Positions 3,130 through 39,132 of a stretch of DNA of 64,000 nucleotides are shown piece after piece. The notes beneath the pieces were generated by a model. It did no database searches. It had not been told where the DNA came from and saw only the letters and a program-made list of their open reading frames with translations. The stretch comes from Rhizophagus irregularis (Eukaryota > Glomeromycota > Glomeromycetes > Glomerales > Glomeraceae), in assembly GCF_026210795.1 (NCBI RefSeq), contig NC_089458.1:1752001-1816000 (forward strand), written 5' to 3'. A program made the translations under genes and the position numbers. Positions within the stretch are counted from its first letter, which is position 1. Each line of letters opens with the position of its first letter.

Positions 3130-4395
3130 AACCAGTAATGAAAAAAAGTAAGAGAAAAAAAAGCAACATTTAATTTTCGTGTTAAAAATTTCCCCACTTT
3201 TGAACCATATTCTTTTCGGTCCACGTGGACAAATATCAAATATTGATATAAACAAACATGCTTATATGTTAATTTATAATGTATGATAACGCAATATTAT
3301 CATTTATTATCATTTTGTAACATACCGCAGCCCATAGGCCATAGCCACAATCAATAGTAGAATACTCGATCAGTGTATTAATTCCCAACATTTTAAATGC
3401 CCTGAAAATCTTGATTTGTAGATCTATTAATTTCTTTTGCTTTTTTTTCGCGCCAATCATTTGCTTATTTTTTCTCTCTCTATCTTTTTATTAATTTTCT
3501 CCACTCTTACAAAGCTTTACTCATACGCAAATGGAAAACCATGAGATTTCTTCCCCGCAATTCAATAAAGTATTACAACATTTGTTGTATATTACCAATC
3601 AAAAGGTTTTTTATCTGATGGTTGATCAATGATTATCTATTATCTTTCGGAGCTTTTTTTTCTAATTATTTTATCAGACTTACCTGATTTGGTTATTTAA
3701 TCCCCCGTTAATTTATTTTAAGTATTTTGATGTGATTTAACGATTTATCTTTTGAAGTACAAAAAATCTTGAATCAATTTCATCTGTATTCACAAATTCA
3801 CATTAACTTTAAATGCGTGTTATTAATATTTTTAAAATATAAGAATTAATTATATTTCCAAGATTAATACAGAATTAAAATATCATTATTAAAATTTATA
3901 AAATTTCTGAACAAACCATTTAATTTAATATTTTCATTTAAGTTTAAAGAATAATATAAAATTATAAGTAAAAAGAGAAATCTATTAACAAAAAAATGGA
4001 TTAAAGTACTATAGTTAAGTAAAGGTTATTTGATTTATTTAATAGTTTTCTCTTTTTATTATTATAGAAAGTTTAATTTATAAGTAAAACAAAAGTTTAA
4101 TGATCAAAAAGTATTAAAATAATGATATTTTTATTAAATATAGGATTATATTAAATATTATATAATATAAAAATTACTCCTTCATCTGTAGGTTTTTATA
4201 GGTATATTTGCCTACAATTTTCAAAAATTTAATGTAATACAAATCATAACAAATTATAATAAATAATTGAAACTTTTTATAAGTCAATCAGTATTAGTAT
4301 ATAATATTATATGATCTTGAGTTACTTGAATGATTTATAATTTATAATTTTATTATATAATTTAATCAATTAAAAAAGAATAATATATAATAAGT
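3128..4395. other. A+T-rich spacer; no gene seen
   Basis: No coding signature, RNA gene or clear transposon end was found. The 63-residue frame at 3269-3460 (minus) has no recognisable motif and is likely chance. Confidence 0.4.
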
Positions 4396-4756: not shown

Positions 4757-5505
4757 GAATAAAAAATTTAAAGTATTTAATTGCCAATCTGCATGTGATC
4801 AATAGAATTTACTAGTAAAATGCGGTGTTATGTTAATTAATAAAAAAAATGCCGTTTGAAATCTCTGTTTCCCCAAAAAACAATAATATCAAATTACATA
4901 CATAACTCCCAAAAAACTTGTTGCAACTGGCGCTATTATATCAGAACTTCATTATTATGTCTATATTTATATGACTTGTTTATTATTTTTTAAGAAAAAA
5001 ATTCAAGATAACTATTCCTATTTTGAAATTACGCTAAAATTCATATATTTCATTATATTCATATTTTTTACAAACTGGACATATTTGTGAAAGTAAAAGA
5101 GATATAAAAGTGCATAGTGTTATTAAAAATGTAATAGTTGACAGAAATAATAATCAAAAAAAATTTTATAAGCGTCAAAGAAAAGTTAAAAAGTTAGAAA
5201 TCATTTATATCATAGAAGTAAAATAGTAGTAAATACTATGAAATCTCCATTTTCTACATATAAAACTTTATAAACTGCAAAGAAAAAAAACTTTTTATAA
5301 AAAATTTTTTTTTCTAAGATTTTAAATATATATTGCAAGTGTTAAATTACGCAATTGTATAACAATATGGTTGCATTTTATTTGATATAAAAACATGATT
5401 GACATGGCTTATATATAAATGTTACACCGCATTTTATTATATAAATTCTATCGATCACATGCGGATCAGCAATTAAATTTGATACTTTTTGCCTACCTTA
5501 AACTG
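4757..5505. mobile_element. fold-back (long inverted repeat) element, ~750 bp
   Basis: The sequence at about 4757-4850 returns inverted at about 5410-5505. Shared blocks include GCATGTGATC, ATAGAATTTA and AAAATGCGGTGT, in the same order on both arms, with small indels. The middle (about 4850-5400) has no reading frame. This is the structure of a non-autonomous fold-back or MITE-like element. I see no convincing target duplication, so the class and exact ends are uncertain. Confidence 0.55.
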
Positions 5506-33428: not shown

Positions 33429-34505
33429 AACATTGAAGACAAAGAAAACATATCAAGAATGTTTATACCATTAATGCCCCAACACAATGAGAAGGTAAAG
33501 CCATAAATGCAACTCTTGATCGAATGCAAAGCTATAAATAAAGCCTGCCAAATATTTCAGAATCTTTTATGGTGGAGGGCATTACAAGAAGGATAAATAT
33601 ACATTAATCAGAATCTAAAAGAGGAACAGATTAACATATCAGATATACAAGAAATGATAGCCAACAGAGACAATATAGCAGATCACATAATGAGATATGG
33701 TGAAGGTTTAAAAGGAACCTGACAATTCTGGATAGTGAGAAGATTTGATAAAACAAATAGAAGCAGATGGGCTAATATTTTTTACCTTTAGCGCCATGGA
33801 TTGAATTACACTTACTGATGGAAAATAATAATCATAGTGAAGATGAGGCTGAATCATCTAAATATTGGCAACAGAACATAATTGATAATCTGCACATCGC
33901 AATGTAGTTTTTTAAACAAAGATTCGAAACTTTCTTTAACAATATGTTGATAAACTGATGGGAATTAGAAGATTATTGGTACTGATACGAGTGGCAGCAC
34001 AGGAGAAGTGTACATGTACATGGAATTGGAAAAAAAAAAATGCACTGGCATGTAATTCAATATCTTGATTCAATAGTGACAAAGATATGCATGCTCTGAT
34101 ACCAAAAAGACATCATAAACGATGATTTACAAGACTATATTGAATTGATAAACAAATTACAAATGTAGTCCCTCATATTGTTTATGTAGTAAACATGGAC
34201 AAGTTTGTAGATTCAGATACCCAAAAGAGAGAAATGATCATTCATTTATACACGAGGATAATCATGGACAACCTGAATTAGTGACATCAAGAAACAACCC
34301 ATATTTAAACCCACACAACAAGTGAATGTTGATATCAAACCCTACATGCAGCTTTGCAATATATCTCTAAATATGTGAGCAAATCTGAACCCAAATCAGT
34401 AGTTTTTACAGAAATATTTAATAAATTCTAAACAAAAGTAATTTGGATGATAATTCACTTGCATTAATCCAAAAACTCTTACTAAACAGTATTGCAGAAA
34501 GAGGC
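33429..34505 (+). pseudogene. Helitron Rep nuclease part
   Basis: Protein blocks in one general order: FIPLMPQHNEKV, INISDIQEMIANRDNIADHI, MRYGEGLKGT with stop then QFWIVRR, APWIELHLLMENNNHSEDEA, NIIDNLHIAM and FFKQRFETFF, ending in the HUH motif block EWQHRRSVHVHGI near 34000. Further on come CSKHGQVCRFRYPKERNDHS, GQPELVTSRNNPYLNPH and LLLNSIAERGIS at 34500. Stops and frameshifts are numerous. The HVH pair is intact; the catalytic tyrosines were not located. The sequence is cut at ERGIS by the TIR element and continues as AQETCHLLLGIPL at 38742. Confidence 0.8.
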
Positions 34506-37500
34506 ATATCAGTCAGTGTGCATGTCCCCTGATCGGGTTGTGTAACATTTTTAATTAAGAAATCTGCATGTTGCATATCATAGTAAAAAATCCAAAAACA
34601 TATAGAAAACCGCAAAATTCAACAACTTTCCACTTGTCTGTAACAAAATATTACATCATATCATGTGATAAAAAGTGGTTAGGTTTATTGTTCGAGGTAT
34701 GTTAATATTATTATTGTTCGTTTTAATATAATATTGTTCCTCGTTTAAAAGAATCTTAACGTCAAAGTTTGCATAAATTTTAATTTATTGATATGGAGAC
34801 TTATGAAATTACTTTTGAAGAAAAAACCCCTTTATATTATAGTAGTCAAGAAATATTTTCAGAAGAAACTGAAGAAGATCTTGACACTTCTTTTGATGAA
34901 CTTTCTGAGTTAGAAATATTTGAATTTAATGAAAAAAATTATATTAATGCGCAAAATGCACTAGAACAAGAAGTTGTGGAATATTCAAGTGATGAAAACG
35001 AAGAAGAATTTGGTACATATGAAGACCAAGAAGTTCCTCCACCTCCTGTTGAAGATGCAAACGAACCTGTATATAGACTTAATCCAGCCATGTATACAAA
35101 TTTTTCACCATGTATTCTAATTGATTATTTAGATAATAAATTGTCAAACTAAAAATGTTAGGAATTTATGCCAATTAGTTGGAGTTTGGCAAATAGATGA
35201 AAATGCAGTATCAGAATACCAGTCAAAAGGAATACCATTGGGGGTGTGTATGAGTCATTTTAATTATGATCAAAAAAATCATAATGCATTTATAAAACAA
35301 TTGCGGAATCCTGAACAAAGTGAAATTAGCCGTCGACGTTGCTTATTGTGTTCTAAAAATTTTCATTTCTTTAGCCGTGGAATTGGATGTAAAGATCATT
35401 TATGGAAAATGTGGGGAAAATATATCCAAATTCCATGTGTTGGTCTCTATACATGTAATGCAGTACACGAATGCCAAGGTATCTCCCAGCGAATTTTTGA
35501 TGATGTTTCAACAATTCGATATATTTGTTATAATTGTTATGAATCTTATGGTGGGCATTTAAACCGTCGACCTGGTTCTGGCAAACGAAAAACAACTTGT
35601 GAACAACATAAATTGCATAAAGAAGATACATCCAAAAGTTTAAAATTATTGGCTCAGTGGCTTACGTATGTAGCAGATACTGAAACAGAAGAAAAAAAAG
35701 AAATAATTCTCGCTTCTATGTTAGTTCCAGCTTTAAAATTTTTATATACTCCATCTGAAACACCCTTAAAGTATGAATATTATAATTCTAAAGATAATAC
35801 ACGTTATTTAAATCTTGATGAATTTAATAATACAAATAATATTGATGATTCAATTAAATTTTTAATTGAAATTTTACCTAAATTGCCCAGTTACTTTTTT
35901 TTAAAATTATTATTAAATATAAATCGTATAACGGATATTACACAACCAAAATTAGACTGGACGGATGATAAATGGAAAGAAATTGGAGAAAAATTGGGAA
36001 ATGAAGTATGGAATTCGCGTAAAATAGTTACAGATAAAAAATCAGAAATACAATTACCAATTTCTCTTAATGCATATTATGAAAGTTTTCCAAATTTTCT
36101 AAGAGGTTTTTTTGATGGGCTTATTGGTGAAATTTTTAAAAAAAAATTAATAAATTTAAATAAAAAACGAAAACAACGTAAAACAATTAGATGTTGAACA
36201 TATTACCAAATGTGTAACATTTTTTGCTTCACTTATAATAAGTATGGCATTTCCTTATCTTGGTGTTTGGTTTACTCAGGTAATGGCTAGTATGTCTCGA
36301 AAATCACGCCTCTTTTTTTCATTTCGCCAACTCTTATCTACTCTTCATATAAGTGGTCATACTGATAGTAATGAACGCCGAATAGAGAAACAACGAATGG
36401 ATAAAGTTAATCCAACTGAAAGATTAATAAAAGGACCAAATATATGGAATTTGGCGGTTATAGATAATATTGATTTCAAAGAAAAATCTTTTACATACGG
36501 AAATATTTTTGACACCACACGCAAAAGTTCTCATACAACGCTACGAATGGCATTTCAAATGCGGATGCCAATTCCTTTGGAAGAAAGAGCAGATGATAAA
36601 AAAAATATAACATCTCCAACAGGTCTTTTTGGCATGAATGATCTGATGAAAGACACATGGGATAAGTTTGACGATATTATTGATAATCTCTTAAATTTTC
36701 AAACAAGTTCTGAAGGACAACTTCTTTACAATACCGATTTTGATATGGCAGCTATTCACCAAAAAATTCTTGAAAATGTTGATCATGGTTGTTTAGCTGA
36801 TGCACCTAATATAGTCATATTAGAAACTGGAGGAATTCCAAATTCAGACGAAGGAATATTTCAATCCACAGAAATGTACAAACAAGACTTTAATTTAGGA
36901 CCGGATGACTACTTGGATGTGGTAGCTGATGAAGCAATCTTCAGAAGACTAATAAAACAGAGAAAAATATGGCCGAAACTGCGTCCTATTCTTGGCCAGT
37001 GGCACACATCCAAGGATATGTGTGGAGTTTTAATTGTATTGTTTTCGAGCTATGGAATTTTTGACCTAGCAAAAGTATCAGGAGTCAAATTCTTGGATAA
37101 ATTGGACAAAATTGTTGATTATCGTTCTACAGTTCGTGTTTTAGAGTTAATATGGTGTGCAGTAACTATATCTATTCGCATATATATGAAAAAAACAAAC
37201 CTTAATAAATATAATATAATGGATTCAAATAGTGGTGCCAATAATATTTTACGAATATGGTATCTTTATTATAAATGGGCATCAATTTTCAAAGCACATC
37301 GTGTAGGAATCCGTGTTGGCAATTATAAATTGCAGAAAAATGCTTTGTCTTGTTTTGCTGGTTTATTTACATCAGCAGGAAAATCAAACTATTCGTCATC
37401 AGTTACTCAATATCTTGGAATGCTGGCTCAATACCCAAAACTTGAAGAAAAATTGGAATGTGTTTCGTCAGTTAAAATTGATAATGATGAAAAACGAAAG

Positions 37501-38740
37501 GGTCACTACTTCGCATTTGACGAATCCCTTGAAACCTTCGGAGTTAAGTTTATCAAACAGAACATTACCGGAAATGTAGTTGATGATAATAAATTAAAAT
37601 TACAAGTCAAAGCCGCCCAGAGTGAACGAGATCGTATAGGAATCTTATTATCAGAATATCTTAATGATCCTTGTGGATCAATTGGACAAAGAGCTGTAGA
37701 TACCGTAAAACGGCCATGTGGAAACTAGTAAACGAACTTTTGTCAGCATTTGAACATTCTGATGATTATAATCGTTATCAAAATCCTTTATGGAGTACTA
37801 CTACTCCTGATCATATTACGGCAGACAGTATTAGACGTCTTGAAAACTGTTTTCCTGATGGAATTTTGAGAATAGAAGAAATTTTCCTACAAGATGTCAT
37901 TTCAATACAAAAAAGTAATAAAGTTGGAAGGAGAAAATTGGGAATTACAAGATGGAAACCTAATGACCAAAATTCAAAAAAAAATAAAAACAAAATGGCA
38001 TCGAGTTCAAATACAGAAAATTCTATTTCTGATCAACAGGTGCCAACTAATTTGATACCTCAAGTAGTAATTATAGATAAAGATGGGCCGCTAATAAAAA
38101 AGCCAAGACAAGCACGTCGTGAAACTAAACCCGAAGAAAAGAGTCTTTTAGAACCATTAGTGACTTGTTCTGAGTATCCGAATGATGAACAAATAGAACA
38201 AGTTAGGGAATTGTTAGGAAATGAATGGGATAAGGATCGAATTTATCAATATATATCTCGTCATAGACGTAATAAAAACAATAAACATAAATAATTTATT
38301 ATATATTACCTTAAATAAACCTGGTCTTTAATAGAAGAAGTCTTCAAGGTTTCATTATATATAAAAAAAATGCCATTTTTCGTTAAAAAGTCCTGTTGTA
38401 TATGGTTTCTTAAAGTGGTTACGTCAAAAGAACTGCTAAAAACTAAGTTCGTTGGGTACTTTTTTTTTGATTTAAAAGTTGGTAGCAAAAGAATCTCGGG
38501 CTTTAGTGTCAAAAATAGGTAAATTTCCTGATAGGATAAAATTTCGCAGGAAAGCAGGGAGGGCCAAACTTTTACTTATTTTAATAGAAGAAATGTTGTT
38601 GAAAAAAGTTTATCAAGGGTGAAGAACGATTATATTGTGGCTTAGAACGAAAGTCTTTAATGGAATATCTTGAACGAATGTTACACAATAATTTTTAATA
38701 TGATCGGCAATGTAAAATGGACATGCACACTGACTGATAT
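34506..38740 (+). mobile_element. 4235-bp TIR transposon carrying one large gene of unrecognised family
   Basis: A perfect 22-bp inverted repeat starting ATATCAGTCAGTGTGCATGT bounds the unit (34506-34527 and 38719-38740). A second shared motif, TTGTGTAACATT, occurs just inside both ends in inverted orientation (34538-34549 and 38677-38688). The unit lies between Helitron blocks ERGIS and AQETCH, so it is an insertion. The duplication is ambiguous: GGCATATCA on the left versus TGATATTGG on the right allow a degenerate 8-bp repeat or a short GGC(A). Inside is a single plus-strand gene, 34793-38294, with about 290 bp of leader and 445 bp of 3' sequence. No other frame of note is present. Confidence 0.85.
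34793..38294 (+). pseudogene. putative transposase, ~1,150 residues, zinc region + RNase H-like core + homeodomain-like tail
   Basis: Four overlapping frames make one protein. 34793-35152: very acidic, 119 residues. About 35130-36197: a Cys/His-rich region; counting from the Met at 35238, C35/C38, C51/H54, C67/C73, H77/C79, C97/C100, H107, C121/H124. About 36160-37728: putative catalytic core; counting from the Met at 36244, NLAVIDNIDF (D74), NIVILETGG (189-197), YLDVVADEAIF (D229) and PILGQWHTSKDMC (H254), a pattern like RNase H-fold transposases. About 37700-38294: Lys-rich linker and a C-terminal YPNDEQIEQVRELLG...RIYQYISRHRR that resembles homeodomain helices. The three frame changes (about 35140, 36150, 37710) are single-base; the second lies in a poly-A run, and no other stops occur. 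So this is either a very young pseudogene or a sequencing artefact over a live gene. I recall similar multi-copy proteins in Rhizophagus but cannot name the family. Confidence 0.7.
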
Positions 38741-39132
38741 TGGCACAAGAAACATGTCACCTACTTCTCGGCATACCACTTTATCATTCTAGTCAACAGA
38801 ACGTATCATTAAATCTTAATGAGGAGGCTCCAAGGTGCGTTCAAGGTACAGGAAGTAGGGGAAATGACAAAGAAGATACATCAATCATTTGAAGTGTGGT
38901 GGTTACCCTTAAGAAAATATTGGGATCGGGATGATCAATTAGAAGATTTTTCACTATATAGGCTATATCTAACCCACAAATACACAAACGGGAAGTGAGT
39001 AAGATGCAAAAAAGAAAACATAGTTAGAATATTGCCTCAACCATCAGGATTGTGTAATGGAGATCAATGGGCGGAATTCTGGGTCCAAACATGTACATAC
39101 AAAGGGACGCCAACCTGAGATCACAAGATATA

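Follow-up and report, generated by a model that had tools for sequence, protein, structure and literature searches.

What kind of mobile element interrupts a Helitron in the fungus Rhizophagus irregularis, and what enzyme would move it, is the question raised by positions 34506–38740 of a 64,000-nucleotide stretch of contig NC_089458.1 (positions 1,752,001 to 1,816,000; hereafter the window). The inserted unit is very probably a cut-and-paste (class II, terminal inverted repeat [TIR]) DNA transposon with a DDE/D transposase of a DUF6589-like lineage. Its boundaries and terminal features, in window coordinates, are as follows.

34510–38736, + strand: transposon, 4,227 bp, its limits given by the TIRs, the target duplication, comparison with other copies and the empty sites
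34506–34509, no strand: left target site duplication, ATAT, present once only in empty sites
38737–38740, no strand: right target site duplication, ATAT, present once only in empty sites
34510–34527, + strand: left TIR, CAGTCAGTGTGCATGTCC, 18 bp
38719–38736, − strand: right TIR, 18 bp
34538–34549, + strand: left subterminal motif, TTGTGTAACATT
38677–38688, − strand: right subterminal motif, TTGTGTAACATT, ∼50 bp inside the element end

The unit is framed by a 22-bp inverted pair, 34506–34527 and 38719–38740, whose two arms are 100% complementary; no exact pair among the 25 listed, out of 47, is longer. The original prediction, made from the letters of the window, took these 22 bp as the TIRs. 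The pair is indeed exact, but its outer ATAT is the target duplication and the TIR, perfect at both ends, is 18 bp long, since the empty sites described below hold a single ATAT and the outer 4 bp vary among copies. A search of the genome with the 18-bp TIR as a pattern, allowing at most one mismatch, found 17 places, 13 of them exact, and the reversed control pattern found none. The second inverted motif that had been noticed just inside both ends is also present: TTGTGTAACATT occupies the two subterminal sites and has no other exact match on either strand of the window. It is the same motif as a TGTGTAACATT-like stretch lying ∼50 bp inside the right ends of eight elements (that of the window and seven relatives), distinct in some of them and weak in the rest, in which G51, T52 and A56 (window row numbering) are invariant.

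The insertion has split a Helitron helicase-like gene, named from its reading frame, into parts at 34250–34509 and 38741–38990. When the window flanks are joined with a single ATAT between them, the frame is open again (...SIAERGILAQETCHLLLGIPLYHSS), so the proposed interruption of a Helitron holds. The joined flanks have ten matches in the genome: two are the window halves themselves, six cross the junction (82–86% identity, on other contigs) and two are partial. In an alignment of four of the six junction-crossing Helitron matches the central 120 bp are gapless, with a single ATAT in each. These empty sites show directly that 4 bp were duplicated.

Elsewhere in the genome there are three more full-length copies, 98.7–99.9% identical to the window element. 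All four copies have the same 18-bp TIRs, each flanked by equal 4-bp sequences on both sides: ATAT in the window and at C22:820860-825109, TTAT at C23:3560266-3564515 and CTAA at C14:4241020-4245266. The claim of a mobile unit with inverted ends is thus borne out by TIRs, duplications, copies and empty sites, and the full-length copies with the same TIRs that it called for are found, together with the Helitron empty sites, in this genome. Internally deleted copies accompany them. L017 (C24) has two TIRs and ATAA on each side; L018 (C32) has a TTAA duplication and a hAT-like element nested inside; L016 (C22) has one exact end, the outer bases of the other being altered. All three share a nearly identical internal deletion, from about query position 630–659 to 3563, which suggests a non-autonomous subfamily mobilized by the full-length element.

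We considered L018 as a ∼6-kb composite element and rejected this, because the inner part is bounded by separate 20-bp inverted ends, CTAAGGTTGCTTGCCGAAAC, and contains a hAT-like open reading frame (ORF; SDNAANV, by our own reading), and so is a nested insertion; this nested hAT-like element occupies positions 1782–6263 of C32:1111350-1117950 and adjoins the transposon TIR. Older copies at C24:6141-18080 and C12:2861053-2881411 lie in pieces over ∼12 and ∼20 kb, apparently through later insertions. Nine further genomic fragments of ∼130–160 bp match only about positions 4063–4229 of the 4,271-base query, and one of these, L032, lacks a TIR where one would be expected and resembles an old remnant.

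Between the TIRs lies one gene, whose recognizable regions and candidate catalytic residues are listed here; row counts, those for G and D at GQWH apart, come from a 50-row alignment that is itself numbered on L014.

34793–38294, + strand: transposase gene, readable without an intron, in four open stretches in the window copy
35340–35609, + strand: Cys/His-rich N-terminal region (CLLC, GIGCKDH, IPCVGLYTC, YICYNCYE, TCEQH)
36244–37728, + strand: predicted RNase H-fold catalytic core with a helical insertion
36463–36474, + strand: D74 and D77 (DNID), strand 1, candidate first catalytic Asp; D in 21/22 and 22/23 rows
36928–36930, + strand: D229 (VVAD/EAIF), just after strand 4, candidate second catalytic Asp; D in 25/25 rows
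36994–37005, + strand: GQWH, directly after strand 5, at the [C/D](2)H position; H in 26/27 rows, G in 20/26, D in 1/26
37516–37533, + strand: F-D-E-S-L-E (in relatives DEALE), where the last core helix begins, candidate for the third catalytic acid; D in 25/25, E in 24/25 and E in 22/24 rows
37716–38294, + strand: basic C-terminal tail

The gene product is ∼1,170 amino acids in the family, and copy L013 reads as open stretches of 512 and 664 amino acids with one stop between them and no need of an intron. A single gene of ∼1,150 residues, as originally proposed, is therefore of the right size for the family, but the window copy itself falls into four open stretches. It is 99.9% identical at aligned bases and, compared with the three other full-length copies, is short of 11 bp at two places and of 1 bp at a third, which accounts for the broken frame; this copy is no longer able to make the full protein. 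The two 11-bp absences, at 35142 and 36178, are of equal length. Across 11 pairs of relatives the ratio of nonsynonymous to synonymous substitution rates (dN/dS) is 0.14–0.30, indicating purifying selection; the values for the five pairs with dS above 1 and for L013 and L014, which hardly differ, are rough.

A protein search of the genome gave at least 75 matches, which group into 52 loci on 21 contigs. Six loci are the window family's own copies, leaving relatives at about 46 others, mostly with 35–63% protein identity. We examined 14 relative loci for their ends (L019–L022 and L039–L048), and 15 more (L049–L063) were taken mainly for coding sequence. Related TIRs, beginning CARTC, with a 4-bp duplication on both sides are present at seven of the 14. 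Both ends were located with the flank unconstrained in L020 and L021; those of L039, L040 and L043 come from a search requiring equal 4-bp flanks of any letters, which also recovered L020 and L021, and those of L047 and L048, imperfect CAGTC and CAATC pairs, from a nine-locus search limited to NTAN. L019 and L022 have a single recognizable end. The TIRs across the family are CAGTCAGTGTGCATGTCC, CAGTCGATGTGCATGTCACA, CAGTCGGTATGCATGTCA, CAGTCAGGCGATATGTCTGAT, CAATCATCGGTCATGTCAC and CAATCACCGGACAAATCCA. Around the relative in L048 (C30:2865600-2871300) there is a second, different inverted pair, AGTAAAATTAATGATTTTTGGG, at about 482–508 and 5250–5275; this outer pair perhaps belongs to another element into which the relative inserted.

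The target sites share a central TA. The 13 two-ended insertions carry ATAT (three), TTAT (three), ATAA (three), TTAA (two), CTAA and CTAT, and the eight single ends carry TTAG, ATAA (three), TTAC, ATAT (two) and TTAT. All 13 and all eight conform to NTAN, or 19/19 once L047 and L048, for which NTAN was prescribed, are set aside; a TIR-like place with one mismatch at C14:1363178 lies outside these 21 readings. A duplication length of 4 bp was read without a set length in eight two-ended insertions, and another five come from searches in which 4 bp was prescribed. With A+T at 72% and TA at 11% of dinucleotides in the window, chance alone would place TA at the center of about one site in 8–9. 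The ends at L025 and L026 apparently belong to one split old copy, with TTAC on one side and TTAT, in the same direction, on the other.

Within the protein, nine Cys/His columns of the N-terminal region are invariant in the 12–15 rows that cover them, and this region is probably zinc-binding. The closest named family is DUF6589 (PF20231), which matches seven of 26 relatives with E values from 1.2e-4 to 0.017 and 14.3–21.4 bits, all under the curated cut-off of 27. These matches fall on one conserved stretch, AGKSNYA to DEALE, at model positions of about 294–360 (one from 258, one from 300). The other 19 relatives and the window protein have no DUF6589 match. Because the seven sequences form two groups of similar members, they amount to about two independent signals, at the same model position. 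The DUF6589 model run against the genome gave nothing over threshold, a result that is uninformative since the model was also silent in all 14 control genomes. The DUF6589/KDZ-like affinity first suggested for the gene is thus retained in its DUF6589 half, the best match having an E value of 1.2e-4 and 21.4 bits against 27, and lost in its KDZ half, for which there is neither a match in the Pfam tables of the window ORFs and 19 relatives nor a fitting duplication length.

Other sub-threshold Pfam matches of the relatives are scattered over many unrelated families. The Pfam tables of the window ORFs and 19 relatives show no helicase or nuclease family over cut-off, and the nearest such matches are all sub-threshold: Mov-10_helical in L045 (E 0.0073, 17.5 bits against 24.8), RNase_E_G in L039 (E 0.12) and LAGLIDADG_2 in L020 (E 0.07). 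No relative was confirmed in the viral contigs and the bacterial and archaeal genomes searched. Some animal proteins of unknown function may share with the family motifs resembling DNID and GDWH.

We predicted the fold with AlphaFold from two family members. Model 1 covers 921 amino acids of L014 and used the 50-row alignment (mean predicted local distance difference test [pLDDT] 64.7, predicted template modelling score [pTM] 0.49, with a poor N-terminal part); model 2 covers a 560-amino acid core of L013 with a 46-row alignment (pTM 0.82, mean pLDDT 78). In the L013 core, strands are predicted at residues 48–58, 78–88 and 170–174, followed by a helix at 183–196, a strand at 205–209, a helix at 211–220, a strand at 227–231, a helical insertion and a helix at 406–423. 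The five strands, which we named by their DSSP order, follow the RNase H order, with two extra helices between strands 2 and 3. Strand 1 carries D55 and D58, D210 comes immediately after strand 4 and H235 immediately after strand 5, and the beginning of the last helix holds D407, E408 and E411; these seven residues are invariant in six diverged members.

Structural comparison with VIA-align 2 ranks the P element transposase at the top for both models (Z 12.1, root-mean-square deviation 4.6, 271 residues aligned for model 1; Z 10.0, root-mean-square deviation 4.1, 265 aligned for model 2). Hermes follows (Z 8.9 and 6.3), with RAG1 (Z 6.6 and 4.6), ISCth4 (5.7 and 5.0) and Transib (3.6, in the second list only) lower down. 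In the P element transposase D230 belongs to strand 1, D303 to strand 4 and E531 to helix 4, and a [C/D](2)H motif follows strand 5 (PMC8230255); the candidate D, D and E of our core occupy the same canonical places. From the order of the structural elements and the residue conservation we infer a catalytic triad of D, D and E. The RNase H-fold transposase pattern read from the sequence is thus supported by the AlphaFold prediction and by its best structural match, and the two acidic positions singled out in advance, D74 and D229, are conserved (21/22 and 25/25 rows).

These features are consistent with a mechanism in which the transposase, possibly through the Cys/His region, would bind both the subterminal motif and the TIR and cleave by two-metal catalysis at the 5′-CA..TG-3′ ends. 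The ends would then be joined 4 bp apart, in a staggered manner, across a TA-centered NTAN target, giving the 4-bp duplication. Movement would be by cut-and-paste rather than copy-out, and internally deleted copies with the same ends may have been moved by enzyme supplied from elsewhere.

Several observations weigh against this assignment. The frame is interrupted in all four full-length copies, and of the 14 relative loci five (L041, L042, L044, L045 and L046) yielded no TIR pair and two are one-ended. The window's own ORFs have no Pfam match, and searches of the PDB by sequence, with the window protein singly and with a profile, returned nothing meaningful (one match at E 2.2). The alignments behind both AlphaFold models hold relatives from one genome only. 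The Z scores for the P element are moderately above the stated background of VIA-align 2, where the best Z is typically 7–8 for models without a clear match and reaches 14 if they are helical. From rank 10 for model 1 and rank 8 for model 2 the lists are mixed with proteins of no relation (NTPDases, Hsp70-type ATPases, glucokinase, Prp8 and Cas005), so that the RAG1, ISCth4 and Transib matches carry little weight. The Foldseek part of the proposed check came back empty, with no match in the PDB at E ≤ 0.001 for either model, while its AlphaFold part gave the RNase H strand order; a viral structure library likewise gave nothing at E ≤ 0.001.

The inability of the window copy to encode a complete protein would also fit a host or passenger gene enclosed by unrelated TIRs and dependent on a different enzyme for its movement. 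This reading is very improbable: it is contradicted by related genes lying between related but diverged TIRs at seven relative loci, and by a predicted fold closest to transposases. We tentatively raise the possibility of an unrecognized superfamily of eukaryotic DDE/D transposons, DUF6589-like, with CARTC..GAYTG ends, NTAN targets, a Cys/His N terminus and a P-like core into which additional residues are inserted between strands 2 and 3; we hold it slightly less firmly because the DUF6589 matches are not independent. Among the titles and abstracts returned by searches of open-licence papers we noticed no description of the element, and a query for DUF6589/PF20231 gave one unrelated paper. A divergent lineage of the Sola2 group, in place of a new superfamily, seems rather unlikely. 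Sola2 elements are described with 12–21 bp TIRs, an 888-amino acid transposase and AT-rich 4-bp AWWT duplications (ATAT, AAAT, ATTT) (PMC3627910), and Sola-2 is among the elements reported from R. irregularis (PMC11075540); short TIRs and a long single transposase are common to both, and the duplications, 4 bp and AT-rich in each case, agree in part. Those of the window family follow NTAN in place of AWWT, several with an outer C or G (CTAA and CTAT/ATAG, with TTAG and TTAC at single ends) and none AAAT or ATTT, a weak distinction.

We are similarly doubtful that the family belongs to Academ or to another Repbase superfamily (Novosib, Dada, Zator and others), groups for which we know of no Pfam models. 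Academ duplications are 3–4 bp, and Academ has an extra nuclease. Academ-1 has been named for R. irregularis (PMC11075540); against such a placement, AcademH carries a helicase (PMC10799480), and no helicase or nuclease family is over cut-off in the Pfam tables of the window ORFs and 19 relatives.

Should the lineage indeed be unclassified, the transposase groups would grow by one with defined ends, a defined TA-centered target and an active site that can be tested. It would suggest a possible function for DUF6589, a Pfam domain of unknown function, and would account for some of the many unclassified repeats reported from Rhizophagus. Repeats over 32% of the R. irregularis genome were unclassifiable, with 8% made up of multigene families and similar sequences (PMC8647823), and a later curated repeat library was built on profile models of named superfamilies (PMC11075540). 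Given that unclassified fraction and a library built from such profiles, the lineage could have been missed earlier. The TIR and duplication rules are usable for finding non-autonomous copies in such genomes.

Comparison with named groups places the family outside KDZ, P, hAT, Kolobok, piggyBac and the CACTA type, in keeping with the early verdict that it is not hAT, piggyBac or CACTA, all three of which fail on the features tested. For hAT, duplications are given as 5–8 bp (PMC12730594) and are usually 8 bp, in contrast to 4 bp here, and no hAT Pfam family is found in the window ORFs or 19 relatives; Hermes is nonetheless the second-best fold match, at a lower Z than the P element. piggyBac agrees in its 4-bp duplication but has 5′-CC..GG-3′ ends (PMC10045372), in place of CA..TG. 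The CMCT clade (CACTA/EnSpm, Transib and Plavaka) is described as having C(2)C and H(3-4)H between the second D and the E (PMC12730594). Between D662 and E860 of L014, C or H exceeds 40% of rows only at C693, C768, H687, H785, H822 and H854, and no pair of these has either spacing; neither motif is conserved in the window family, a point of difference from Hermes and RAG1/Transib; 5′-CA..TG-3′ ends and duplications of 2–5 bp are common to this clade and the window family but unspecific. Kolobok, with TTAA duplications and 5′-RR..YY-3′ ends (PMC9587614), is rejected on TTAA in only two of 13 insertions and on the CA..TG ends. KDZ (Kyakuja-Dileera-Zisupton), with reported duplications of 7–8 bp (PMC12730594), is rejected on duplication length and on the absence of PF18758 from the window ORFs, from 19 relatives and from the 25 families listed for 26 members; the same model has 23 matches elsewhere in this genome. 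Ginger and IS481EU share 4-bp duplications, the described IS481EU families ending in TGT..ACA (PMC10045372), and the sole test against them is the absence of an integrase family from the Pfam tables of the window ORFs and 19 relatives.

The closest structural parallel is the P element transposase of Drosophila (PDB 6pe2, 6p5a), with which the predicted core shares its RNase H core, a helical insertion and the final helix over 265–274 aligned residues. P elements make 8-bp duplications and have CA..TG ends; the window family has like ends and a 4-bp NTAN duplication in place of 8 bp. Sequence identity is 7–8%, the first and second Asp are 155 residues apart as against 73 in P (∼80 extra), and no THAP domain, a point of difference from the P element, is matched in Pfam. 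At the [C/D](2)H position the window family has mostly G, in 20/26 rows with D in one, where P has C or D. On this residue and the 4-bp duplication we reject membership of the P superfamily, which the shared predicted fold does not establish. By sequence, DUF6589 is the closest named family, although every match is below its curated cut-off; the lineage is thus DUF6589-like, with a predicted fold nearest to that of the P element and then to hAT.

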